NCBI GenBank assembly: GCA_039193195.1
Contig: JBCCWS010000040.1
Location: 1-53,081, forward strand
DNA length: 53,081 bases
Reading direction: 5' to 3'
Origin: Pseudomonadota bacterium
GTDB lineage: Bacteria > Pseudomonadota > Gammaproteobacteria > Steroidobacterales > JBCBZW01
Made by a program: the position numbers and the translations under genes. The notes under the pieces are model-generated. The model saw only the letters and a program-made list of their open reading frames with translations, had not been told where the DNA came from and ran no database searches. The stretch's first letter is position 1; each line of letters begins with the position of its first letter. Shown in pieces: positions 12,317 to 33,714 of the stretch.

Positions 12317-12772
12317 ATGATCGCGATGAGTGAGAACCCCCACACAGGATCCTGCACCTGTGGCGACTGCTCGGTGAGCATCGTGCTGCCCGAGCCCCTG
12401 TCCAGCTATACGCCACGCGCCTGCGATTGCGGTTTCTGCGTGCCCCGGGGAGTGGCCTATCTTTCGGCACCGCAGGCGAGGATCTCGCTGCGCAGCGTGA
12501 GCGGCTGGCGCCGGGATCAGCAGGGGTCGAGGCAGGCCTTTTTCCTGTCTTGTACCCTCTGCGGTGAGCTGCTGGCAGTGGTGGCGGAGCTCGAGGATGG
12601 CTGGCGCGGCGCGGTCAATGCGCGGCAGCTCGAGGATCGTGAGTTACTCCGCGAGGCCCAGCCTGCCTCGCCGAAGGGTCTCGATGGCTCGGGAAAGCGG
12701 GCGCGCTGGGGGAGTCTGTGGGGCAGGGTGGAGATGGAGGCGGTCCTCGACAGGTTGGAGCAACGCGGTTGA
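12317..12772 (+). CDS. GFA/CENP-V family zinc-binding protein
   Basis: Cysteine spacing is that of the GFA (glutathione-dependent formaldehyde-activating enzyme-like) fold: GSCTCGDCSVSI at residues 12-23, RACDCGFCVPRG at 35-46 and FLSCTLCGEL at 78-87. The protein has 151 residues. The first two pairs usually form a structural zinc site and the second set a catalytic zinc site. Family members range from S-(hydroxymethyl)glutathione synthases to proteins of unknown role, so the name is structural only. It stands alone after a divergent pair with the GyrI-like gene. Confidence 0.8.
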   Translation: MIAMSENPHTGSCTCGDCSVSIVLPEPLSSYTPRACDCGFCVPRGVAYLSAPQARISLRSVSGWRRDQQGSRQAFFLSCTLCGELLAVVAELEDGWRGAVNARQLEDRELLREAQPASPKGLDGSGKRARWGSLWGRVEMEAVLDRLEQRG

Positions 12773-13067
12773 CCTGGGTTGCTGCGATCGTGCACACGCA
12801 TGGCCTTGCTGCGCCCGGAAGTCGCCGCTGCCCCTTGGGACATGGACCTGACTGTCCACGTGGAGAACCATCGGTAAGCGCGCCGCCATCGAGACACTCG
12901 GCGAGATCGCGCCGGTCCGCGCCGCGCGGTGCAACGTCGGCAGTGATTAATGGGCTGAGGCCTACCACTGCGTACCACATCGCCTTGGCAGCCGTGTGTC
13001 ATGGCCACGAGTGGTAGCATGAGCCTGCCGGAGAGGGCCCGGCGATCAGCACACCACGAAGCGAGCG
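12773..13067. other. Intergenic, with a possible coding scrap
   Basis: A short plus-strand frame from ATG 12800 reads 25 residues (MALLRPEVAAAPWDMDLTVH and on) to a TAA; the next frame then gives GKRAAIETLGEIAPVRAARC. Together they could be the debris of a small gene, but no start signal or homology is clear. The promoter of the gene at 13068 is presumably at the right end. Confidence 0.25.
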
Positions 13068-14168
13068 ATGACTCCGTCTGCGGACCCAGGTTTTCATCTC
13101 ATCTTGCGTATCGACGAGCCGCAGCTGAGCGATGCAACGCGTACTATCCTGCAGGCCCTTCGGCCAGTGGGTGTGCACTTCGGCCGCGACGCCTTTCTCC
13201 ACAACGAGCCGTACGCCGTTTGGCTAGCTGCGTTCGGTGAGCTGCGCGATGCGATACGAGCAGCCACGGGTCGAGAGCGACTCATCTGGGCCCTCGATCA
13301 CGAGGGCGGACGCGTGCATCGTCTGCCGGCGCCCATCGCTCACTTCCCTTATCCCCTGAACTGGCGCGAGCGTGCCCCAGAGGTGGGCAAGGCGGTGGGC
13401 GTCGCATTGCATTCCTTGGGCATGAACGTGGTGTTTGGCCCTTGCCTAGATGTGTTCGCTGAGCCGCAGAACGAGGTGATCGGACCGCGTGCCTTCGGGC
13501 GTGATGCGCAGGAGGTTGTTCGCTACGCCCTGCCGTACGTACGCGGCGTGCAGTCCGAGGGGGTGGCGAGCGTCGGCAAGCACTACCCAGGTCATGGTCG
13601 CACCCTGCTCGACTCGCACTTCGCTCTGCCGAGCCTCGACGACCCCCTAGAGACCCTGCGTGTCACAGACCTGGCGCCCTTCGAGGCGGCGATGGGCAGT
13701 GCTGAATTGGGTGCCATCATGAGCGCTCATATCCTCTTTCCGGCAATCGATGGGCAATGGCCTGCGTCACTGTCCAACGCCCTCTGCGGAGACTTCCTGC
13801 GCGACACGATGGGTTTCGAGGGTGTCGTCATCGCTGATGATTTCGACATGAAGGCAGTAGCCGATCGCTACTCACTCGAGGCACTGGCCGCACGGACGCT
13901 TGCTGCTCCTGCGGACATGGTGATCTTCAACCATCACTATGGGCGCGCCTTCGAGTGGTCCGAGGCGATCAGGAATTTGGTGGCTGAGGATGAACAGGCC
14001 GCAGCCCGTCTGGCGGCGGGGCGCGCGCGTGTGGTGCGCTGGCTCAATCGCCTCAGGCATCCATCGCCATCCCCCTTGGAGGCCTGCACCTTGCGATCTC
14101 ATCAGGCGCTGGCCGACGCACTCCCTCAGAAGCACACGATCGAGGTCGAGGAGTTCACGGGTGAGTGA
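13068..14168 (+). CDS. nagZ: Glycoside hydrolase family 3, NagZ-like beta-N-acetylglucosaminidase
   Basis: A 366-residue cytosolic GH3 protein without a signal peptide. LIWALDHEGGRVHRLPAP near residue 65 is the GH3 substrate loop (DQEGGRV in E. coli NagZ). SVGKHYPGHGRTLLDSHFAL around 168-187 is the NagZ catalytic His/Asp loop (KH-x-PGHG-x4-DSH). GVVIADDFDMKAV near 258 holds the Asp nucleophile. NagZ removes GlcNAc from anhydroMurNAc-peptides or MurNAc during wall recycling. The next gene starts within its stop region (GTGAGTGA), so the two are translationally coupled. That neighbour also handles peptidoglycan glycan, which supports the assignment. Confidence 0.85.
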   Translation: MTPSADPGFHLILRIDEPQLSDATRTILQALRPVGVHFGRDAFLHNEPYAVWLAAFGELRDAIRAATGRERLIWALDHEGGRVHRLPAPIAHFPYPLNWRERAPEVGKAVGVALHSLGMNVVFGPCLDVFAEPQNEVIGPRAFGRDAQEVVRYALPYVRGVQSEGVASVGKHYPGHGRTLLDSHFALPSLDDPLETLRVTDLAPFEAAMGSAELGAIMSAHILFPAIDGQWPASLSNALCGDFLRDTMGFEGVVIADDFDMKAVADRYSLEALAARTLAAPADMVIFNHHYGRAFEWSEAIRNLVAEDEQAAARLAAGRARVVRWLNRLRHPSPSPLEACTLRSHQALADALPQKHTIEVEEFTGE

Positions 14169-15549
14169 GCACGATGCCGCCTCGCACGAGGAGCCGACGA
14201 TCACCGTTGGACTTTTGGACGATGAACCCGAGATCCGCTTTTCCTTGAGTTGCCCCTACGCCGTGCAGAGCCAGCTGGCAGTATCGCTTAGTGAAGGCAT
14301 TTACTCGGTGAAGCGTCGCGACGATACGCTGCAGCTGACCGGCGATGGGCGCGTGCTGGAGGCACAGGAGTTCACGCTGATACCTACGCGCGACGACGGC
14401 GAGTTTCGCTTGACCACCGAGATTGGCAAGGGCTTCCACTGGGCGGAGTACGAGGAACAGGCGTTTCCCGCCGAGTTGCAGCTCATAGCCGCCAGAGCCG
14501 GACGGGGTGTGACGGCGATCAATCGCCTGCCCATGGAGCGCTATCTGACGTCGGTTATTTGCTCGGAGATGTCCTCCAGCTCACCGCGCTCCCTACTGGA
14601 GGCGCATGCCGTGGTATCGCGAAGTTGGCTGTTGGCGCGCAGGGTAGCGAAGTCTCGCCTGTCCGCTGCTGAGATACAGGACGCCGTGGAAGCGAGGGCC
14701 ACGGTGGGGAATGAGGACGCCACCACCGTAATGCGGTGGTACGACAGCATCGCGCACGCCGACTTCGATGTTTGCGCGGAGGATCATTGCCAGCGCTACC
14801 ATGGCACTCTGCGCGTCGCCAATCCAGCGGCCGAGCAGGCCATCGCGGCCACCCGTGGACTTGTGCTGATGCACGATGCGCAGGTGTGCGAGACCGTGTA
14901 CTCAAAGTGCTGCGGAGGCCGGTCGGAGGATGCCCGGGTGGCCTGGAGCGATGCGCACATACCCTATCTGATGCCGGTCGATGACCAGGCCCGAGATGCG
15001 CGGCCACTCGCCCACGATCTGACGCGGGAGGCTGACTTTCGTGCGTACCTCGACGACGACCCACCCTCCTTTTGCAACTGCAAAGACGAGGAGGTGTTGG
15101 CGCTCGTGTTGCCACCGAGGGATCAGCGTACGCGCCACTTCTACCGCTGGACCGAGCGCCTAAGCCCTAAAATAGCTGGGGAGCTAGTGCGCCAGAAGCT
15201 CGGTCATGATCTCGGACCGGTGCGAGCGATTGAGCCCGTGCGTCGCGGCGCCTCAGGCAGGTTGCAGTGCGTGCGTCTCGTCGGGGAACGGGCTACTCTG
15301 ACGGTTGGCAAGGAGCTTGAGATTCGTCGTGCGCTCTCACCATCGCATCTATACAGCTCCGCATTTGCGGTGGATCTGGAGGGGCCAGCGGAACGTCCTG
15401 ACGCCCTGGTGTTGCGTGGGGCCGGTTGGGGTCACGGCGTGGGGCTCTGTCAGGTCGGCGCGGCGGTCATGGCCTACCGAGGCTACGCTTACGAGAGCAT
15501 TCTCGATCACTACTACCCTCATACCACGCTGGCGTCGGTGTATGCCTGA
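14161..15549 (+). CDS. SpoIID/LytB-domain protein without signal peptide
   Basis: The GTG start at 14161 overlaps the nagZ stop by 8 bases and gives 462 residues. NRLPMERYLTSVICSEMSSS, then LEAHAVVSRSWLLARR, is the SpoIID core, with the catalytic-type Glu in the first segment. Cys-rich CAEDHCQRYHG, YSKCCGGRSED and SFCNCKDEE follow, and GAGWGHGVGLCQVGAAVMAY is the C-terminal signature. SpoIID enzymes are lytic transglycosylases that cut glycan chains lacking peptides. No signal sequence is seen, so it should act on cytosolic fragments, unlike LytB or SpoIID of Gram-positives. The cysteine pattern recalls Bacteroidota homologues as I remember them, which would suggest transfer. Confidence 0.8.
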   Translation: MSEHDAASHEEPTITVGLLDDEPEIRFSLSCPYAVQSQLAVSLSEGIYSVKRRDDTLQLTGDGRVLEAQEFTLIPTRDDGEFRLTTEIGKGFHWAEYEEQAFPAELQLIAARAGRGVTAINRLPMERYLTSVICSEMSSSSPRSLLEAHAVVSRSWLLARRVAKSRLSAAEIQDAVEARATVGNEDATTVMRWYDSIAHADFDVCAEDHCQRYHGTLRVANPAAEQAIAATRGLVLMHDAQVCETVYSKCCGGRSEDARVAWSDAHIPYLMPVDDQARDARPLAHDLTREADFRAYLDDDPPSFCNCKDEEVLALVLPPRDQRTRHFYRWTERLSPKIAGELVRQKLGHDLGPVRAIEPVRRGASGRLQCVRLVGERATLTVGKELEIRRALSPSHLYSSAFAVDLEGPAERPDALVLRGAGWGHGVGLCQVGAAVMAYRGYAYESILDHYYPHTTLASVYA

Positions 15550-15564
15550 GCAGGGGACTAGCGC

Positions 15565-16260
15565 GTGAAGACCATCGGCTTGCTGGGCGGCATGAGCTGG
15601 GAGAGCACCACGCTCTACTACCAGTTGATCAACCAGGCGGTCAAACAACGGCTCGGCGGCCTGCATTCTGCGCCAATCGCGCTGGTGAGCGTGGACTTTC
15701 ACGAGATCGAATCGCTTCAGCACGAGGGCCGCTGGGACGAGGCGGGTGCGTTTCTGGCTCGCGCGGCATCGCAGGTGCAAGCGGCTGGAGCCGACTGCCT
15801 GCTGATCTGTACGAACACGATGCACAAGGTGGCAGACGCGGTGGAGGCGGCCATCGACGTTCCCCTCTTGCATGTCGTGGACGCGACCGCCGCCCTGGCG
15901 CGCGAGGCGGGACGGCGAAGGCTGGGGTTGTTGGGCACGCGCTTCACTATGGAGCAGCCGTTTTATCGGGACCGCTTCGCCCAGCGATACAGCATCGATA
16001 TTCTCGTGCCCGGCGCCGCCGAGCGTGAGGAGGTCCATCGCATCATCTACGAGGAACTCTGTTTGGGGACGATCAACGACCGATCGCGCGCGCGCATGCT
16101 CGAGATCATCGACGGCCTGATGGCATCGGGAGCGGAGGCGATCGTGGAGGGCTGCACGGAGATCGGCATGTTGGTAGGCGAACGCCATACGCAGGCCCCT
16201 CTCTACGATACTACTGCCGTGCACGCTGAGGCCGCCGTCACCTGGGCGCTGACCCTTTGA
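15565..16260 (+). CDS. ygeA: Aspartate/glutamate-type amino-acid racemase, YgeA-like
   Basis: A 231-residue protein extremely close to E. coli YgeA in visible motifs. The N-terminus is MKTIGLLGGMSWESTTLYYQ, the first catalytic cysteine is in CTNTMHKVADA near residue 81, LLGTRFTMEQPFY follows, and the second cysteine is in EGCTEIGMLV near 193. The two-cysteine, PLP-independent mechanism inverts the alpha carbon; YgeA has broad specificity with preference for residues such as homoserine. It begins 15 bases after the SpoIID-like gene and probably shares its transcript, so it may interconvert D- and L-amino acids from peptidoglycan peptides. Confidence 0.9.
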   Translation: MKTIGLLGGMSWESTTLYYQLINQAVKQRLGGLHSAPIALVSVDFHEIESLQHEGRWDEAGAFLARAASQVQAAGADCLLICTNTMHKVADAVEAAIDVPLLHVVDATAALAREAGRRRLGLLGTRFTMEQPFYRDRFAQRYSIDILVPGAAEREEVHRIIYEELCLGTINDRSRARMLEIIDGLMASGAEAIVEGCTEIGMLVGERHTQAPLYDTTAVHAEAAVTWALTL

Positions 16261-16875
16261 TCACTCCGATGGTTTGACCTTGCGTACAGGTAAGGTCAGG
16301 TCGTCGATAGCGGCTTCCGCCCTGCTACGTGCCTCGGTGTCGCTCGACTGGCCATCGGCGGCGATCACGTGCAGGTCAGTGATGCCAATGAACGAGAGTA
16401 CGTGGCGTAGGTAGCCACTGGCGAAGTCGATTGGGCTGCCCAAGCGGGTGCCCCCTGAGGCCATAACCAGGTAGGTCGGGCGATTGGCGAGCAAACCGAC
16501 CGGCCCGTCTGTGGAGTAGCGAAAGGTGCGCTGCGCCCGGCAGATCAGATCGATGTAAGCCTTCATGGCCGCGGGTACGCCGAAGTTGTAGATCGGGCAG
16601 GCGATCACTACTGCATCTGACTGCTCCCACTCGCCGATCAGTGTCTCCGACAGGGTCAGCACCTGGTGGTGCGCCTGCGTACGTGCCTCGTCGGGGGTGA
16701 TGTTGGCTGCGATCCAGTCACCGTCGACAAATGGTAGGGGCGGATCGGCGAGGTCGCGCTCGGTAACGACGGTCTCGGCCGCAAGGCGTTCGACGAGGCG
16801 GTCGGCGAGGGCGCGCGTCACCGACGCCTCGCGCCGGCTGCTGGCATCCACACGAAGCAAGTGATGACGGCTCAT
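16261..16875 (-). CDS. azoR: FMN-dependent NADH-azoreductase
   Basis: A 204-residue flavodoxin-fold protein. LLRVDASSRREASVTRALAD near the N-terminus is the FMN phosphate loop (AzoR: S-x-R-x2-S-x-S-x2). VVIACPIYNFGVPAAMKAYI around 89-108 is the classic AzoR/NQO signature contacting the isoalloxazine ring. MASGGTRLGSPIDFASGYLR completes the site. The enzyme reduces quinones and azo compounds by two electrons, probably against electrophile stress. It ends back to back with ygeA and starts 7 bases after tal, with which it likely forms an operon. Confidence 0.9.
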   Translation of the reverse strand: MSRHHLLRVDASSRREASVTRALADRLVERLAAETVVTERDLADPPLPFVDGDWIAANITPDEARTQAHHQVLTLSETLIGEWEQSDAVVIACPIYNFGVPAAMKAYIDLICRAQRTFRYSTDGPVGLLANRPTYLVMASGGTRLGSPIDFASGYLRHVLSFIGITDLHVIAADGQSSDTEARSRAEAAIDDLTLPVRKVKPSE

Positions 16876-16882
16876 GGTGGCA

Positions 16883-17854
16883 TTAGCTCCATTGCTCGAG
16901 CAGTGCTTCGAGCTTGCGTTGGTCGATGGCGAAGCGACGGATGCCGTCAGCTAGCTTCTCCGTTGCCATCGCGTCTTCGTTGAGTCTCCAACGGAAAGCG
17001 CCTTCAGAAACCTCTCCTAGGGAGTCGATCTGCATATCCCGTGCGCGGTCCTTGGCGAGTCTGCGCGCGAGATCGCCCTCGCGCTGCTGCAGCTCATCGA
17101 GCAGGGCCGGGGCGATCGTGAGCAGGTCGCAGCCCGCGAGTTCGATGATCTGGTCGGCGTTGCGGAAGCTCGCCCCCATCACTTGCGTAGTCAGTGCGTG
17201 GTGCTTGTAGTAGTTGTAGATCGCCGTTACGGATCGGACTCCGGGGTCGTCCTCCGGGGCGTAGGCCTGTTGGCCCGTGTTTTGCTTGTACCAATCGAGG
17301 ATGCGGCCCACGAAGGGTGAGATAAGTGTGGCACCGGCTTGCGCGCAGGCCACCGCCTGGGCGAGGCAGAACAACAGGGTCATGTTGCAGTGAATGCCTT
17401 CCTGCTCTAGGGCACGCGCTGCCTCGATGCCCTCCCAGGTGGAGGCGAGCTTGATCAGGATGCGCTCGCGGTCGATGCCCATCTCCTCATAGCGCTTGAT
17501 GAGACGACGTGCCTTCGCCACGCTCGCACCCGCATCGAATGATAGGCGAGCATCCACCTCCGTAGACACGCGACCTGGGATCAGCTCGAGGATGGCGTGG
17601 CCGAAGTTTACGGCCACCTGCTCGGCGATGGCGTCAATGCGCGCGCGACCGGTGAGCGTCGTGGGGGCCGTGGCGATGGCCTTTTCGATGAGCGGCTGAT
17701 ACTCAGGTTGCTGGGTCGCGGCTAGGATCAGCGAAGGGTTGGTGGTCGCATCGACCGGTCGGCATTGGTGGATGCTGTCGATGTCGCCGGTGTCCGCGAC
17801 CACGGTGGTCATCGCGCGGAGCTGGGGCAGTAGGGCGTTAGGCTGGGATTGCAT
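16883..17854 (-). CDS. tal: Transaldolase (TalB type)
   Basis: A 323-residue TIM-barrel aldolase matching the enterobacterial TalB length. [20 protein letters not shown] and TNPSLIL mark the first strands. [10 protein letters not shown] carries the DARLSFD motif. [20 protein letters not shown] contains the Schiff-base Lys. [20 protein letters not shown] and [12 protein letters not shown] follow. It transfers dihydroxyacetone from sedoheptulose-7-P to glyceraldehyde-3-P in the non-oxidative pentose phosphate pathway. It precedes azoR on the same strand. Confidence 0.97.
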
Positions 17855-17944
17855 GGGGTGTCCGCTGATTCCAGTTGTTGTTATCGGAAGAGTTAATAGG
17901 GCCCGCAGAGCTGCAAACCGCGCGTCTGGCGTAGCGCGCCCAGC

Positions 17945-18466
17945 TTACGTAGGGGTGGTGCGACCGAAGTCGGTGAACTCCAGCTTGCCCGTGTTCGGCC
18001 GCAACGATGCCCAGTCCTGCAACTGAGGAAGGACAAGGCCGATGATGCCGCAGGTGGGTAGCCCAGCCACCGGATCGGCACTCAGGGTGGCGGCAAGCTC
18101 ACTCAGCCCCGGGTTGTGACCGACAAGGGCCACGCAGGAGTTCCCATCATCCGTATCACTTAGCAGTTCGAGCAGGGTTGTTCGTGAGGCATTGTAGATG
18201 GCCAGTTCGTACTGGATGGCTTCGGCGTCGTAGCGCAGCCTCTTGGCGAGAAGACGTGCGGTGCCGGCGGCGCGCGTGGCGGGCGAACTCACGATCAGAT
18301 CGAGGATGATTCCGCGAGCCTGCAGCCGCCCGCCAGCGAGACGTGCCTCATGTTCGCCGTGATCACTTAGTGGACGCTCCTTGTCCGGTCCGCCCCCCGG
18401 GGGTTCCCGCTCAGCTTGTGCGTGGCGCACAATGAGCACGCGTCGGGGCGGACGCTCGCCGTTCAT
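17945..18466 (-). CDS. sixA: SixA-like phosphohistidine phosphatase
   Basis: A histidine phosphatase of 173 residues. The RHG motif is VLIVRHAQAEREPP near residue 10, with the phosphorylated His, and DKERPLSDHGEHEARLAG follows as the SixA pattern. SSPATRAAGTARLL and CVALVGHNPGLSELAATLSA supply the second Arg and the second His. SixA removes phosphate from His residues of Hpt domains or of the nitrogen phosphotransferase NPr. Here it lies 22 bases after sufT and seems to be the last gene of the suf transcript. Confidence 0.85.
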   Translation of the reverse strand: MNGERPPRRVLIVRHAQAEREPPGGGPDKERPLSDHGEHEARLAGGRLQARGIILDLIVSSPATRAAGTARLLAKRLRYDAEAIQYELAIYNASRTTLLELLSDTDDGNSCVALVGHNPGLSELAATLSADPVAGLPTCGIIGLVLPQLQDWASLRPNTGKLEFTDFGRTTPT

Positions 18467-18488
18467 GAAGATGGGGCGGGCAGTGGCA

Positions 18489-19043
18489 TTAGTACATCAT
18501 GCCGGTTTGTAGGCGAGCAGCCTCACTCATGCGACTTTGATCCCATGCGGGTTCGAAGGTGAGCTCCACGCGAACATCCTCGACGGTGGGGATCAGCAAT
18601 AGCTTCTCGCGCACGTCCGCCACGAGCACATCGCCCATCCCGCAGCCGGGCGCGGTCAAGGTCATCACCACGTCAACCCGTCGGGAGGTGCCACCCCCGT
18701 GTTCGAAAGTGCAGCCGTAGATCAAGCCCAGATCGACCACGTTAATGGGGATCTCAGGATCGAAGCACGTGCGCATCTGATCCCACGCAAGCTTCTCGAC
18801 GTCATCGTTGGTGGCGCCCTCCGGTAGCTCGGGGCGGGGAGTGGGCTCCTTGCCTAGCGCGTCAGCGTCATGGCCAGCGATGCGGAACAGATGCCCGTCC
18901 AGGTAGACGGTGAAACTGCCGCCAAGGGCTTGTGTGATGTAGCCCATCGCGTCCTCGGGCAGGGTGGTCTCTTCACCGCTCGGGATTACGATGGCCTCGA
19001 CGTCGCGACTGATGACTACCGGTTCGCTCTGGTTGCCAAACAT
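18489..19043 (-). CDS. sufT: SUF-associated Fe-S maturation protein SufT
   Basis: A 184-residue protein with a short N-terminal domain of about 85 residues, then a MIP18/DUF59 domain. The signature reads DPEIPINVVDLGLIYGCTFE around 97-116, and VVMTLTAPGCGMGDVLVADV carries the hyper-reactive cysteine conserved in MIP18-type proteins. The N-terminal part (VEAIVIPSGEETTLPEDAMG, then VYLDGHLFRIAG) matches SufT specifically. SufT helps mature Fe-S proteins under high demand. The gene follows sufU after 6 bases. Confidence 0.93.
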   Translation of the reverse strand: MFGNQSEPVVISRDVEAIVIPSGEETTLPEDAMGYITQALGGSFTVYLDGHLFRIAGHDADALGKEPTPRPELPEGATNDDVEKLAWDQMRTCFDPEIPINVVDLGLIYGCTFEHGGGTSRRVDVVMTLTAPGCGMGDVLVADVREKLLLIPTVEDVRVELTFEPAWDQSRMSEAARLQTGMMY

Positions 19044-19049
19044 CTCGCG

Positions 19050-19502
19050 TTACTCCGTGGACACAGTCGTCGGGTCCTCGGTCGACAGGGCCGAGTTCAC
19101 GGTGTGCCAGCACAACGTCGCACACTTCACGCGGGAAGGGTAGGCGCGCACGCCAGACAGGGCGGCGAGCTTACCGAGCGCCGCCTGATCGACATCGGCA
19201 TCGGTGTCGGTGAGCAACGCGTGCATGGCGCCGAAGACCTGCTTCGCCTGCGCGAGCCTAAGACCCTTCAGGTGTTCTGTCATGAGTGAGGCAGAAGCGA
19301 TCGAGATCGCGCAGCCCGCGCCCTCGAAGCGGACATCACTGATGCGTTCGTCGTCGTCCACGTTTAGGTAGATCGTGAGCTTATCGCCGCACAGGGCGTT
19401 AAATCCGTCCGCCGTGTGCGACGCTGGCTCTAGGCGCCCGAAGTTTCGCGGGCTCTTGTTGTGATCGATGATCAGGTCTTTGTAGAGATCCGCTAGCTCC
19501 AT
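19050..19502 (-). CDS. sufU: Fe-S assembly / sulfur-transfer protein SufU
   Basis: A 150-residue IscU-fold protein. The three zinc/sulfur cysteines are in FNALCGDKLTIYL, FEGAGCAISIASASLM and RVKCATLCWH. The insertion between the second and third, and the CATLCWH ending, are features of SufU rather than IscU. SufU binds zinc and accepts persulfide from SufS by ligand swapping, standing in for SufE. The start codon overlaps the sufS stop by one base (TGATG). Confidence 0.95.
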   Translation of the reverse strand: MELADLYKDLIIDHNKSPRNFGRLEPASHTADGFNALCGDKLTIYLNVDDDERISDVRFEGAGCAISIASASLMTEHLKGLRLAQAKQVFGAMHALLTDTDADVDQAALGKLAALSGVRAYPSRVKCATLCWHTVNSALSTEDPTTVSTE

Positions 19503-20779
19503 CAGCCGAACACCTTCTGCGCTACGCGTAAGGCGTCGATAAGTCGGTCAACGTCCTCGTGCGTGTTGTAGCTGGCAAAGGACGCGCGCGCAGTTGCAGG
19601 TACCCGAAAGAAGTCCATCACGGGTTGCGCGCAGTGATGCCCAGTGCGCACGGCGACGCCCTCGCTATCGAGGATAGTGCCTATGTCGTGGGGGTGGATT
19701 CCGTCGAGTGCGAAGCTGAGGGCTCCTGCCTTCTCCGCGGCGGTGCCGATCACCCGCGCGCCCTTCAGATCACTGAGCAAATCGGTAGCGTACTCAAGCA
19801 GCTCGTGTTCCCACGCGCCGATGGCTTCGGGCGTCAGGGTCTCGATGAAGTCCACCGCCGCGCCGAGCCCGATGGCACCGGCGATGTTTGGCGTGCCCGC
19901 CTCGAACTTCGCGGGCAGGGGCGCGTAGCGGGTGCCGTTGAAGCGCACTTCGAGGATCATCTCACCGCCGCCCTGCCAGGGCGGCATCTGCTCCAGCAGC
20001 TCAGCGCGGCCGTAGAGTGCGCCGATGCCCGTGGGCCCGTACATCTTATGGCCAGAGAAGGCGTAGAAGTCGCAGTCGATGTCCTGCACGTCCACCCGCA
20101 GGTGAGGGACCGCCTGGGCACCATCGATCAGTGTCATGGCGCCCGTCTCACGGGCTAGCCTTACCATCTCCTTCACTGGATTAATCGTGCCGATGGCGTT
20201 GGAGACGTGGATCATGGCCACGATGCGGGTCTTGGGGCCGAGCATCTCGCGGTAGGCGACCATGTCCAGCTCGCCGGCTTGGCTGATGGGTACCGGGCGC
20301 AGCGTCGCGCCCGTGCGCTCGGCGAGGAGCTGCCAGGGAACGATGTTGGAGTGATGTTCCATGTGCGTGACGAGAATTTCATCGCCCGCTTGGAGGCGTA
20401 CGCCGTAACTGTTGGCGACGAGGTTGATGGCCTCGGTCGTGCCGCGGGTGAAGATCACCTCGCGCGCCTCGCGAGCGTTCAGGAACGCGCGGACGCGCTC
20501 GCGGGCGTGCTCGAAGGCATCCGTCGCGCGTTGGCTGAGCGTGTGTACACCACGATGAACGTTGGCGTGGTCACGCTCGTCGTACAGCCGTACGGCGTCT
20601 ATCACCGACTGGGGGCGCTGGGCCGAGGCGGCATTGTCCAGATACACGAGCGGGTGACCGTTCACCTCTTGGTCGAGGATCGGAAACTGCTTGCGCACAA
20701 CACTTACGTCGAGGTCCAGGGGCGGCGCGTCCACCACATCGACGTCTGGACGTGGGTGGGACCGGCTAGCAGCAGTCAT
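19502..20779 (-). CDS. sufS: Group II cysteine desulfurase SufS
   Basis: A 425-residue PLP enzyme. VYLDNAASAQRPQSVIDAV near residue 45 opens the fold; THMEHHSNIVPWQLLAERTG carries the stacking His. FYAFSGHKMYGPTGIGALY holds the Schiff-base Lys, and VAVRTGHHCAQPVMDFF carries the catalytic Cys on the short group II loop. It takes sulfur from cysteine, leaving alanine, and hands the persulfide to SufU. It overlaps sufD by four bases (ATGA), showing tight coupling. An N-terminal extension of about 25 residues before the usual start is unremarkable. Confidence 0.97.
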   Translation of the reverse strand: MTAASRSHPRPDVDVVDAPPLDLDVSVVRKQFPILDQEVNGHPLVYLDNAASAQRPQSVIDAVRLYDERDHANVHRGVHTLSQRATDAFEHARERVRAFLNAREAREVIFTRGTTEAINLVANSYGVRLQAGDEILVTHMEHHSNIVPWQLLAERTGATLRPVPISQAGELDMVAYREMLGPKTRIVAMIHVSNAIGTINPVKEMVRLARETGAMTLIDGAQAVPHLRVDVQDIDCDFYAFSGHKMYGPTGIGALYGRAELLEQMPPWQGGGEMILEVRFNGTRYAPLPAKFEAGTPNIAGAIGLGAAVDFIETLTPEAIGAWEHELLEYATDLLSDLKGARVIGTAAEKAGALSFALDGIHPHDIGTILDSEGVAVRTGHHCAQPVMDFFRVPATARASFASYNTHEDVDRLIDALRVAQKVFG

Positions 20780-22116
20780 GACAGTTCCTCCAACAAATGA
20801 GCGCTGTCGCCTAGGCGGGCGAGCACGGCGCGGGTCGCCACCTCGCGCACGGGTGCCAGGTCGATGCGCTCGATCAGGTCGCGCGCGAATGCGTAGGTCA
20901 GCACCTGGCGGGCGCGTTGCTCGTCGAGGCCTCGCGAGCGGAGGTAGAACACAGCTTGCTCGTCGAGTTGGCCGACGGTGGCACCGTGGCTGCAGACCAC
21001 ATCGTCGGCGTAGATCTCGAGCTCAGGCTTGGTGTCGATCTCCGCTCGTTCACTGAGTAGCAGGTTGCGGCTCGACTGGTGCGCCTCGATGCCCTGGGCA
21101 TCCTTGTGGACCACGACCTTGCCGTTGAAAACGCCCCGGCTACGGCCATCGAGCACGCCACGGTAGTCCTCATCGCTGCGGGTGTGCGGCTTGAGGTGGT
21201 CGACGCGCGTGTGCGTGTCGAGATGCTGCTCATCGGTCGGCAGGAACACGCCGTTCAACACGGTGCTCGATCCAGGAGCTGCCAATTGCACGTTGATGTC
21301 CTGGCGCGCAAGGCGCGCACCGGCCTGCAGGTGGTGATTGACAAAGCGCGCGTCGCGTCCAAGCGTGGTGTTTAGGGAATGCACGACGGAGCCCGTACGT
21401 GCTCCGTCATGTACCAAGTAGTGATCGATATGAGCGCCGTCTGCGAGGCGCAGCTCTTCGACCATGTTGGTGAAATTAGTAGGTTCGCCGAGGGTGGCGT
21501 GATGTTCGACGATGCGGGCGCGCGCATGGCAACCGGCCACCACGTAGACCCTAGGTTGGATCAGGGCTGCCGCCGCCTGCTCGACGCTCAGAAACACCAG
21601 GCATATCGGGCGATCCAGCTCGACGTTCGCGTCCAGGCTAATCAGCGCTCCATCCTTCATGAACGCGGTGTTGAGCGCCACTAAGCCGTTACTCTCCAGG
21701 TTGGCAACGGAGCCGAGCGCCATCAGGCGGGTGTCTTCCTGGTCTACCGCGTGCGCCAGGCTGCCCACGTGCACGCCGGCGGTGGTGACCTCCTCGGCAT
21801 CGCTGAGGGAGGGTGCGTAGCGCCCGTTTACGAAGACCAGGCGCAGGGCGTCGTCGTTGGCGAACGACATGGCGGGAAGGGCATCCGCGGCGACGCTAGG
21901 AATGGCCGCCGCTGCTTGAAAGGCCTCGCGCTCTATGCGAGAGAGGTTGGTGTACTTCCAGTCCTCGTGCCGTGTGGTGGGAAAGCCTTGGCTCGAGAAG
22001 GCCTCTATCGCGCGCGTGCGCAGCGCTTTGATCGCCTCGCTGCCAGCGAGGACGCGCTGCATTTGCTCGTGCGCCTCCGTGTAGCGCGCGATCGTGTCGG
22101 CGAGGGCCGTGGTCAT
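20776..22116 (-). CDS. sufD: Fe-S scaffold subunit SufD
   Basis: 446 residues with the beta-helix core of the SufB/SufD family. GFPTTRHEDWKYTNLSRIER near residue 45 is the standard N-terminal motif, ADGAHIDHYLVHDGARTGSV lies in the middle, and DGRSRGVFNGKVVVHKDAQG then NLLLSERAEIDTKPELEIYA mark the C-terminal half. VVCSHGATVGQLDEQAVFYL carries the conserved Cys and the His that binds the nascent cluster together with SufB. It forms the SufBC2D complex and overlaps both neighbours by four bases. Confidence 0.96.
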   Translation of the reverse strand: MTTALADTIARYTEAHEQMQRVLAGSEAIKALRTRAIEAFSSQGFPTTRHEDWKYTNLSRIEREAFQAAAAIPSVAADALPAMSFANDDALRLVFVNGRYAPSLSDAEEVTTAGVHVGSLAHAVDQEDTRLMALGSVANLESNGLVALNTAFMKDGALISLDANVELDRPICLVFLSVEQAAAALIQPRVYVVAGCHARARIVEHHATLGEPTNFTNMVEELRLADGAHIDHYLVHDGARTGSVVHSLNTTLGRDARFVNHHLQAGARLARQDINVQLAAPGSSTVLNGVFLPTDEQHLDTHTRVDHLKPHTRSDEDYRGVLDGRSRGVFNGKVVVHKDAQGIEAHQSSRNLLLSERAEIDTKPELEIYADDVVCSHGATVGQLDEQAVFYLRSRGLDEQRARQVLTYAFARDLIERIDLAPVREVATRAVLARLGDSAHLLEELS

Positions 22117-22868
22117 GCTGCGTTGGCCTCTTCGAGCACCCAGTCGTAGCCGCGTGCTTCGAGTTCGCGGGCAAGGTCCTTGTCTCCAGACTTGATGATA
22201 CGGCCTGCGGCGAGCACGTGAACGTGGTCAGGTTCTATATAGTCGAGCAGGCGCTGGTAGTGGGTGACCAGCAGCATCGAGCGGTCTTCGCTGCGCAGAG
22301 AGTTCACGCCGTTGGCGACCACGCGCAAGGCGTCGATGTCGAGGCCCGAATCGGTCTCGTCGAGCACGGCGAGCTTCGGGGCGAGCACGGCCATCTGCAG
22401 GATCTCGTTGCGCTTTTTCTCGCCGCCGGAGAAACCCTCGTTGACGCCGCGTTGGAGGAAGCTCTCGTCCATCTGCATGAGCTGCATCTTCTCGCGGACT
22501 AGTGAAAGAAACTCATAGGCGTCGAGTTCCGGCAGATCACGGTGCTTGCGCTGTGCGTTGAGGGCCGCCTTCAGGAGGTAGACGTTGTTCACACCTGGGA
22601 TCTCCACCGGGTACTGGAAGGCCAGGAACAGGCCTTCGCGTGCGCGCTCCTCTGGCTCAAGCTCCAGCAGGGCGGTGCCGTCGAAGTCCACGCTACCGCT
22701 CGTGACCTCGTAGCCGCTGCGGCCAGCGAGGAGGTGGGCGAGGGTGCTCTTGCCGGAGCCGTTTGGGCCCATGATGGCGTGCACTTCTCCCGCGCCGATC
22801 TCTAGCGAGAGGCCCTTCAGAATTTCCTTGTCCTGCACGTTGGCGCGCAGATCGCGAATGCTGAGCAT
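22113..22868 (-). CDS. sufC: Fe-S assembly ATPase SufC
   Basis: A 251-residue ABC-type ATPase. Walker A is GPNGSGKSTLAHLLAGR near 35-51, the family signature is GFSGGEKKRNEILQMA, and Walker B is KLAVLDETDSGLDIDALR. The VLDE-x-DSGLD form is diagnostic for SufC. No membrane domain partner is needed; SufC dimerises on SufB-SufD and powers cluster assembly in the cytosol. The gap of 85 bases to sufB is the longest inside the operon and may hold only a ribosome site. Confidence 0.97.
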   Translation of the reverse strand: MLSIRDLRANVQDKEILKGLSLEIGAGEVHAIMGPNGSGKSTLAHLLAGRSGYEVTSGSVDFDGTALLELEPEERAREGLFLAFQYPVEIPGVNNVYLLKAALNAQRKHRDLPELDAYEFLSLVREKMQLMQMDESFLQRGVNEGFSGGEKKRNEILQMAVLAPKLAVLDETDSGLDIDALRVVANGVNSLRSEDRSMLLVTHYQRLLDYIEPDHVHVLAAGRIIKSGDKDLARELEARGYDWVLEEANAA

Positions 22869-22953
22869 GTTGACTTCCTGGTTTCCTTCGGGCGCGGCGC
22901 TCGAGGTCGAGCCCGCGCGATCATGTCCTAAATGCAGCTTGTTGCCGGCGCCG

Positions 22954-24402
22954 CTAGCCTACGGCGCCCTCGAGGCTCACGTTGAGCAGGCGCTGGGCCT
23001 CCACCGCAAACTCCATCGGCAGCTCCTTGAACACTTCCTTGCAGAAGCCGTTCACGATCATGTTCACCGCGTCCTCTTCCGCGATGCCTCGCTGGCGGCA
23101 GTAGAAGAGCTGGTCTTCGCTAATCTTGGAGGTGGTGGCCTCGTGCTCGACGGTGGCCGTTGGTTGCTTCACTTCCATGTAGGGAAAAGTGTGGGCGCCG
23201 CACTTGTCGCCCATGAGCAGCGAATCGCACTGGGTGTGGTTGCGGGCTCGCTCGGCGGTTGGTAGCACTTTGACCAAGCCTCGGTAGGCCTGTTGGGCGC
23301 GGCCCGCGGCGATGCCCTTAGAGACGATGGTGCTGCGCGTATCGCGGCCGATGTGGATCATCTTGGTGCCCGTGTCCGCTTGCTGCAGGTTGTTGGCCAC
23401 GGCCACGGAGTAGAACTCGCCCACGGAGTTATCGCCGCGCAGAATGCAGCTCGGGTACTTCCAGGTGATCGCGGAACCCGTCTCGATCTGGGTCCAGCTG
23501 ATCTTGGAATTGTCGCCGCGGCAGTCGCCGCGCTTGGTGACGAAGTTGTAGATGCCGCCGACGCCGTTCTCATCGCCGGGGTACCAGTTCTGCACGGTGG
23601 AGTACTTGATCTCCGCGTTCTTCATGGCCACTAGCTCGACGACCGCGGCGTGCAGCTGGTTCTCATCGCGCATCGGTGCGGTGCAGCCTTCGAGGTAACT
23701 CACGTAGCTGTCTTCATCAACGATGATAAGCGTGCGCTCGAACTGCCCCGTGTTGGCAGCGTTGATGCGAAAATACGTGCTGAGCTCCATCGGGCATCGC
23801 ACGCCCTTCGGGACGTACACGAAGGAGCCATCGGAGAAGACGGCGGAGTTGAGCGCCGCGAAGAAGTTATCGCGCGGCGGCACTACCGTACCGAGGTAGC
23901 GTTCGATCAACTCTGGGTGGCTGTGTACGGCTTCAGAGAAGGAGCAGAACACCACGCCTGCTTCGGCCAGCTTCTCTTTGAAGGTGGTGGCGACGGAGAC
24001 GCTGTCGAAGACCGCATCGACGGCCACGCCTGCGAGCGCGGCACGCTCGTGTAAGGGGATGCCTAACTTCTCGTAGGTCTCGAGGAGCTTCGGATCCACT
24101 TCATCGAGACTCTTCGGCTTGTCCTTGTCCGACTTCGGCGCGGCGAAGTAGGAAATCGCCTGGTAGTCGATCGGCGGGAAGTGCACGTGGGCCCATTTTG
24201 GCGAGGTCATCTTCTGCCAGTGGCGAAAGGCCTTCAGGCGCCAGTTGAGCATGAACTCCGGCTCGTTCTTCTTGGCCGAAATCAATCTAATGACGTCTTC
24301 GTCCAGGCCGGGCGGTACGGTCTCGGTGTCGATGTCGGTCACGAAACCGTGCTTGTACTTGCCTTCGACGACGTCGTGGACGTCCTGCATTCCGTTACTC
24401 AT
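22954..24402 (-). CDS. sufB: Fe-S scaffold subunit SufB
   Basis: 482 residues, the usual size. Landmarks are [20 protein letters not shown] in the N-terminal helical part, [40 protein letters not shown], and [20 protein letters not shown], which contains the Cys that takes sulfur from the desulfurase pathway. The end has [20 protein letters not shown]. SufB is the main scaffold where the cluster is built. The ATG overlaps the stop of the regulator gene (ATGA at 24399-24402), so regulator and scaffold are made from one message. Confidence 0.97.
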
Positions 24403-33623: not shown

Positions 33624-33714
33624 GGAGAGGTGGCCGAGTGGTCGAAGGCGCCAGATTGGAATTCTGGTATACGGGTCTCCCGTATCGTGGGTTCGAATCC
33701 CACCCTCTCCGCCA
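33624..33714 (+). tRNA. tRNA-Ser (anticodon GGA)
   Basis: A complete class II cloverleaf of 91 bases. The acceptor arm is GGAGAGG with CCTCTCC. The D arm is GCC-GAGTGGTCGAA-GGC. The anticodon arm is CCAGA-TTGGAAT-TCTGG with GGA in the loop. The long variable arm TATACGGGTCTCCCGTATC is typical of serine tRNAs. The T arm is GTGGG-TTCGAAT-CCCAC. The discriminator G and CCA end are encoded. It reads UCC and UCU codons. A 150-base stretch with no clear gene follows. Confidence 0.97.

Follow-up and report, generated by a model that had tools for sequence, protein, structure and literature searches.

A nagZ–SpoIID–racemase operon in a gammaproteobacterial genus and its possible place in cytosolic peptidoglycan recycling

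Introduction

What does a SpoIID-domain protein do when it is encoded between a NagZ-like glycosidase and a racemase and is predicted to stay in the cytosol of a gammaproteobacterium? The question is raised by contig JBCCWS010000040.1 (assembly GCA_039193195.1, a Pseudomonadota bacterium of the Steroidobacterales), analyzed here as a stretch of 53,081 nucleotides, hereafter the window. A preliminary description of this DNA had read the three genes as a possible peptidoglycan salvage route. Our analysis retains a role in peptidoglycan sugars for NagZ and SpoIID, which look like a replacement sugar branch and not like an extra route. We lean toward the interpretation that in this genus the operon supplies the sugar steps of peptidoglycan recycling in the cytosol, where its products would take the place of canonical NagZ and AnmK. 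The proposal was built on gene content, the cytosolic type of the SpoIID family, the conserved residue Glu136, the predicted fold and the absence of certain genes; substrates, products and direction of flow were inferred.

Results

The nagZ gene (13068..14168, 366 amino acids, ATG start and TGA stop codons, Pfam Glyco_hydro_3) overlaps by 8 bases with the SpoIID/LytB-domain gene (14161..15549, 462 amino acids, GTG and TGA), which is followed after a gap of 15 bases by a gene of the YgeA/EcL-DER-type aspartate/glutamate (Asp/Glu) racemase family (15565..16260, 231 amino acids, GTG and TGA). All three are on the plus strand, and the coordinates of the open reading frames (ORFs), together with the Pfam and NCBIfam families, agree with the arrangement as first described. 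The overlap and spacing suggest that the genes are co-transcribed; no sigma-70-like promoter was found in a search of positions 12700-16600 of the window. Among 39 related genomes there is one other of the same genus (G001, the genome that carries the window being G000), and it carries these three genes in identical order, again with an 8-base overlap between nagZ and the SpoIID gene. The proteins of the two genomes share 77.1% (NagZ), 77.4% (SpoIID) and 85.2% (racemase) identity, and the ratios of nonsynonymous to synonymous substitution rates (dN/dS) are 0.14, 0.11 and 0.10, respectively, at dS values of 0.9-1.4, which are near saturation. Because genes, order and overlap recur in G001 with low dN/dS, the triple was judged to be more than chance. 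The possibility that the SpoIID gene is a spurious overlapping ORF was ruled out by its counterpart in G001 and by the dN/dS value. The complete triple was observed in this genus only.

The SpoIID protein matched PF08486 (E 6e-20, 72.1 bits versus a cut-off of 23) and TIGR02669 (E 2.3e-46, 158.9 bits versus 83.3), and it missed the equivalog model of the sporulation protein, TIGR02870 (100.6 versus 234.75 bits). By these profiles it is a SpoIID/LytB-domain protein other than the sporulation SpoIID. Scanning genome contigs with the single sequence yielded no confirmed relative; relatives were recovered with an alignment built on matches from a plasmid collection, and the best 80 of at least 586 candidate stretches encoding relatives were retained. 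The family, common among Bacteroidota, also extends to Ignavibacteriota, Planctomycetota, Gemmatimonadota and Myxococcota, and its members share 39-47% identity with the window protein (40-47% for 71 of the best 80), nearly over the full length in most cases. The residues Cys205 and Cys210, separated by four residues within the stretch DVCAEDHCQRY (codons at 14773..14790, plus strand), are invariant in the family and may form a metal site. The residue Glu136 (codon 14566..14568, plus strand) aligns with a glutamate of B. anthracis SpoIID that lies in a conserved stretch, SEM, and is identical in all 86 aligned family members. It is probably the counterpart of E88 of B. subtilis SpoIID, which is named as essential in a study of SpoIID proteins (PMC6635528).

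The AlphaFold model of the protein (pLDDT 89.7) superimposed on C. difficile SpoIID (5i1t) with Z 24.1 and a root-mean-square deviation (rmsd) of 2.5, with 269 of 285 residues aligned, and on B. anthracis SpoIID with Z 18.5, rmsd 3.3 and 241 aligned residues. The lytic transglycosylase SleC followed at Z 11.6, and unrelated structures began at about Z 7. Foldseek returned three matches with E < 0.001, all of them the same SpoIIDs found by Z score. The NAD-kinase-like structures that matched residues ~12-115 at Z 6-7 were interpreted as sharing a common arrangement.

The absence of signal peptides and the cytosolic location were both part of the preliminary description, and both were supported. 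Signals were assessed by simple hydropathy, as the best 12-residue mean within the first 50 residues. The six operon proteins from the window and G001 reached 0.7-1.4, as compared to 2.6 for the secreted SpoIID of Monoglobus (L008), which has a clear hydrophobic N-terminus; none of the three products in either genome has a signal-like N-terminus. Export of SpoIID from an upstream start was considered and rejected: the three in-frame start codons before 14161 lie inside nagZ, and their hydropathy values are 0.9-1.1. Relatives were consistent with this picture. Of the loci in which a SpoIID ORF was called, 82 lie outside the genus (78 on genome contigs and 4 from the plasmid collection). SpoIID is fused to other domains in 14 of them, behind DUF4922 in 6 and behind a family 2 glycosyltransferase (GT2) and DUF4922 in 8, in proteins of 716-1291 residues, and such fusions argue for the cytosolic side. 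Three unfused members from the plasmid collection begin directly in the domain. Five unfused loci were inspected because of their high hydropathy; the peak lies in strands of the domain except in L021, where it falls in a probably over-extended start. The family, signal-less, fused or adjacent to cytosolic-type enzymes and often encoded beside an AmpG-like permease, is thus evidently cytosolic as judged from sequence. The single GT2-DUF4922-SpoIID proteins are those of L005 (5526-9314), L023, L030, L058, L064, L068, L069 and L087, with 1251-1291 residues.

Which recycling genes accompany the operon was assessed in 30 genomes, including G000 and G001, with models for NagZ, AnmK, AmpG, Mpl, MurU and DUF4922. 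Canonical NagZ (NF003740) scored over the cut-off in 27 genomes, the exceptions being G000, G001 and G008 (82% complete), and the top match in G000 and G001 was the product of the operon nagZ (167.2 and 166 bits versus 207). AnmK was matched in 25 of the 30 genomes, and no match was found in G000 and G001, both drafts, or in G012, G023 and G028. Mpl was over the cut-off in 28 genomes, including G000 and G001, and MurU in 25, with 256.9-257.5 bits in G001 and 246.7-249.6 bits in G000 against a cut-off of 250. In both genomes of the genus murU overlaps by 4 bases with amgK, for whose product AmgK was the best model (221-223 bits versus a cut-off of 550), and the pair is located beside a gene that we take from its sequence to be lptD. 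AmpG was over the cut-off in 27 genomes, and G000, G001 and G022 had only matches of ~260 bits. There is one AmpG-family match each in G001 and G022; that of G000 lies on contig 2 (L111:7312-8856) and is a 514-residue AmpG-like protein of the major facilitator superfamily (MFS). In summary, Mpl and the last two anabolic sugar steps are kept in the genus, and the known steps from N-acetylglucosamine (GlcNAc)-1,6-anhydro-N-acetylmuramic acid (anhMurNAc) to N-acetylmuramic acid (MurNAc)-6-phosphate were not found.

The neighborhoods of the SpoIID family in other phyla point to the same area of metabolism. The following counts refer to the 82 loci outside the genus and may be low because ORF calling was crude and contigs were cut. 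DUF4922 was present in 61 loci and not found in 21, i.e., it is common without being universal; GT2 was found in 61 and an AmpG-like MFS protein in 56, adjacent to SpoIID in 48. NamZ was encoded in 22 loci, in 19 of them on the strand of SpoIID and no more than four genes away; for a BadF/NagK-like kinase the corresponding numbers are 27 and 12. DUF4922, GT2 and the AmpG-like protein were all absent in 11. A frequent arrangement in Bacteroidota is GT2-DUF4922-SpoIID-AmpG-like permease, with or without NamZ. The NamZ assignment is clear (PF07075, 289.6 bits), the kinase scored under the cut-offs of its models, and the AmpG-like protein of L047 had TIGR00901 as its top model at 174.7 bits versus a cut-off of 350. 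In a search for AnmK that covered 50 genomes of the 80 loci, 37 of these SpoIID-bearing genomes of other groups, including that of L015, a commensal Bacteroides, had no match, a count that stands without a background rate. As for nagZ, tblastn against the DNA of 86 loci detected outside the genus two distant matches to glycoside hydrolase family 3 (GH3), and neither was accepted as linkage: that in L057 (28% identity) belongs to a 1000-amino-acid GH3-beta-lactamase protein ~6 kb away on the opposite strand, and that in L082 (26%) is partial, ~7 kb away and also on the opposite strand.

In L070 (2728-4654, Myxococcota) a sugar nucleotidyltransferase gene, cut by the contig end, follows the SpoIID gene, and its product is about as near to the MurU model as to that of mannose-1-phosphate guanylyltransferase, without reaching either cut-off. 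L046 and L066 include a MurU-like nucleotidyltransferase gene and a gene for an AmgK-like kinase fused to RapZ near a DUF4922-SpoIID gene, two to three genes after it and on the opposite strand; the scores in L046 are below the cut-offs, and the assignment in L066 was made by clustering.

The operon nagZ codes for a probable divergent GH3 beta-N-acetylglucosaminidase. The protein has the GH3 N domain (Glyco_hydro_3, E 1.2e-55), and at residues 171-184 (13578..13619, plus strand), aligned with solved GH3 enzymes, it has the sequence KHYPGHGRTLLDSH, which we take to be the motif of GH3 N-acetylglucosaminidases and NagZ, with the definition KH-x-PGHG-x4-D(S/T)H. The score was under the cut-off of the NCBIfam PRK05337 equivalog (168.1 versus 207 bits), and the nearest solved relatives are named general GH3 N-acetylglucosaminidases. 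It is nevertheless the top match to the NagZ model in G000, where two other matches, in frames of 739 and 877 amino acids, reached 59 and 42 bits. With regard to a donor, the 15 matches listed of 291 in the plasmid collection share 30-43% identity over 56-83% of the protein, and nagZ is assigned to no donor.

The racemase belongs to Asp_Glu_race (E 1.2e-41) and to the TIGR00035 subfamily (220.5 versus 93.1 bits), and it is under the cut-off of the PRK10200 equivalog (303.7 versus 417 bits). It aligns end to end with the aspartate/glutamate racemase 5hqt, in which Thr83 and Cys197 have matching positions; we take 5hqt to be E. coli EcL-DER and Thr83/Cys197 to be the catalytic pair. Conversion of D-amino acids released from the peptides had been suggested as the function of this gene. 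That suggestion was not sustained: Mpl would allow the intact tripeptide to be reused, so that dismantling it is unneeded, and the linkage is seen in the genus only. Of the 86 loci whose DNA was searched by tblastn, the 85 outside the genus gave no racemase relatives. The racemase may be a passenger or may have some link to D-Glu or D-Asp.

The SpoIID protein is rare among the relatives of its host. It was matched in 2 of the 39 related genomes (G000 and G001) and in 1 of 369 genomes of the class, that of the window, and searching the class with PF08486 gave the same single genome out of 369. In the phylum 8 of 398 genomes matched the SpoIID protein, of which only that of the window did so strongly; the other seven were rejected as family relatives, since their scores (at most 25.7-38.8 bits) came from other long frames and covered no more than the final third of the query. 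PF08486 matched the controls E. coli, Bacillus, Synechococcus, Thermus, Deinobacterium and Bacteroides, and its score over the cut-off in E. coli indicates that gammaproteobacteria do have this domain. In a phylogenetic tree the window protein grouped with members from Gemmatimonadota (L013) and Planctomycetota (L009), outside the Bacteroidota. Because of the meeting of long branches and an odd composition, no SpoIID donor is named.

The operon lies at one end of a 10-kb block (13008-23230) that is collinear with contig 76 of G001 at ~80% DNA identity; 5′ of position 13008 similarity is patchy (70-72%). The block also includes an azoreductase-like gene, a transaldolase gene and genes that by eye appear to be of the suf type. 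The only tRNA gene found in the window is that of tRNA-Ser (gga) at 33624-33714.

Discussion

In the pathway that we favor, GlcNAc-(anhydro)MurNAc would be imported by the divergent AmpG-like permease, and the peptide would be removed and reused through Mpl. NagZ, judging from its family and motif, would take GlcNAc off the non-reducing end. SpoIID would act with water at the C1 bond of MurNAc to produce reducing MurNAc, and this could occur in two ways. In a weaker form of the proposal it would be a muramidase that acts on imported longer strands free of peptide. In the boldest form it would open the 1,6-anhydro end and replace AnmK, a reaction that would amount to the lytic transglycosylase step reversed, with water as the acceptor. 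Opening of the anhydro end was considered the simplest option because no AnmK was found. GlcNAc-anhMurNAc would then be converted by SpoIID to GlcNAc-MurNAc, by NagZ to GlcNAc and MurNAc, and by AmgK and MurU to UDP-MurNAc, although the SpoIID and NagZ steps could run in the reverse order. Since Mpl and amgK-murU are kept, the operon probably feeds AmgK-MurU. That the cytosolic SpoIID is an ATP-independent 1,6-anhydro-MurNAc hydrolase, which converts GlcNAc-anhMurNAc to GlcNAc-MurNAc and replaces AnmK here and in many Bacteroidota, including as the missing step of T. forsythia, is a tentative proposal that may well prove wrong.

The closest precedent is in T. forsythia. There, Tanf_08345-08385 form one transcript by reverse transcription PCR (Ruscitto et al. 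2017, PMC5388701), in the order xanthan lyase, gtf, gtf, lytB, ampG, ybbC, murT, murK, murQ, with lytB (Tanf_08360) annotated as "amidase enhancer precursor". The gtf-gtf-lytB-ampG-ybbC portion of this AmpG/MurTKQ operon matches the GT2-DUF4922-SpoIID-AmpG-NamZ order of the Bacteroidota loci described above, and from its annotation and gene order lytB is probably a member of the same SpoIID family. T. forsythia uses GlcNAc-anhMurNAc and GlcNAc-MurNAc via AmpG; AnmK is not predicted, and the authors of that study called the next metabolic step unexplored (Mayer et al. 2020, PMC7670621). MurK prefers MurNAc (PMC5790795). The chlamydial SpoIID of Waddlia is a muramidase that generates mostly non-anhydro products from denuded glycan (PMC6635528). 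In the texts available to our literature search, which were partial and included few subscription papers, no recycling role for a cytosolic SpoIID was found.

Several observations weigh against the proposed role. Three other genomes, G012, G023 and G028, have neither an AnmK nor a SpoIID match and have MurU and canonical NagZ over the cut-off; hence AnmK can be lost where there is no SpoIID, and these bacteria have either another way without AnmK or broken routes. G000 and G001 belong to one genus, and the losses that they share may be one event. Their AmpG is divergent (259.8 and 262.5 bits in G000 and G001 and 263 in G022, versus a cut-off of 350). DUF4922 was found in none of the 30 genomes, including G000, and the window has no relative of GT2 or DUF4922, the chief companions of SpoIID in Bacteroidota. 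AnmK is present in 13 of the 50 SpoIID-bearing genomes of other groups. T. forsythia is described as showing poor growth when anhMurNAc is supplied in free form, attributed in that study to import or to slow metabolism (PMC7670621), and B. subtilis SpoIID as showing no build-up of reducing products on denuded glycan (PMC6635528).

This last result would also be expected if the cytosolic SpoIID were an ordinary lytic transglycosylase that cuts imported peptide-free oligosaccharides into short anhydro fragments, with NagZ trimming these products and anhMurNAc being discarded as a dead end. The reported secretion of anhMurNAc by an E. coli anmK mutant is compatible with such a fate. We regard this explanation as unlikely: AmpG permeases are reported to take disaccharides (PMC7670621), which would leave few internal bonds to cut, and the retention of amgK-murU would be hard to explain unless these enzymes serve other MurNAc. 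It is improbable that the substrate is not peptidoglycan at all, and that NagZ and SpoIID handle chitin-like or other GlcNAc oligosaccharides, as might be thought from a GH3 enzyme under the NagZ equivalog cut-off (168 versus 207) whose closest solved relatives carry general names; peptidoglycan is indicated both by the AmpG-like and NamZ proteins that accompany the SpoIID family and by the failure to find canonical NagZ in the genus.

The annotation of T. forsythia lytB and the overlap of the nagZ and SpoIID genes could suggest that SpoIID is a non-catalytic, LytB-like enhancer that partners NagZ or a cytosolic amidase, which we consider quite improbable given that all 86 members share the catalytic glutamate. 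Finally, AnmK and canonical NagZ could merely be missing from the assemblies, the operon being accessory. Both genomes are indeed drafts, in 113 and ~300 contigs; in two separate assemblies that are ~99% complete, neither gene was nonetheless matched, whereas Mpl and MurU were found in both, and a gap of this kind seems very improbable.

The proposed recycling branch can be placed among known systems. As compared to the T. forsythia operon, that of the window has NagZ and the racemase instead of GT2, DUF4922, AmpG and NamZ. The anabolic recycling of Pseudomonas and Caulobacter includes AmpG, NagZ, AnmK, MupP, AmgK and MurU; the genus shares amgK-murU with it, together with Mpl, and differs in having no AnmK match, no canonical NagZ and a cytosolic SpoIID instead. 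The SpoIIDs of B. subtilis, B. anthracis, C. difficile and Waddlia have in common with the window protein the domain, the fold and the catalytic glutamate; unlike them, the window protein is signal-less, and it is ~180 residues longer than the 5i1t chain. The racemase resembles EcL-DER/YgeA in having Thr83 and Cys197 and in aligning with 5hqt over its entire length, and it differs in its PRK10200 score below the cut-off.

How bacteria that lack AnmK handle anhydroMurNAc is a question left open in print for T. forsythia (PMC7670621). In the genus described here a single candidate, SpoIID, stands beside NagZ while the remaining partners seen in Bacteroidota are missing, and the question thereby becomes open to direct test. 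Elsewhere this type of enzyme is known from sporulation, whereas here it appears to be kept inside the cell. If the proposal is true, a large family whose present annotation goes no further than SpoIID/LytB or amidase enhancer would gain a function, and an AnmK-independent route to UDP-MurNAc would be added.

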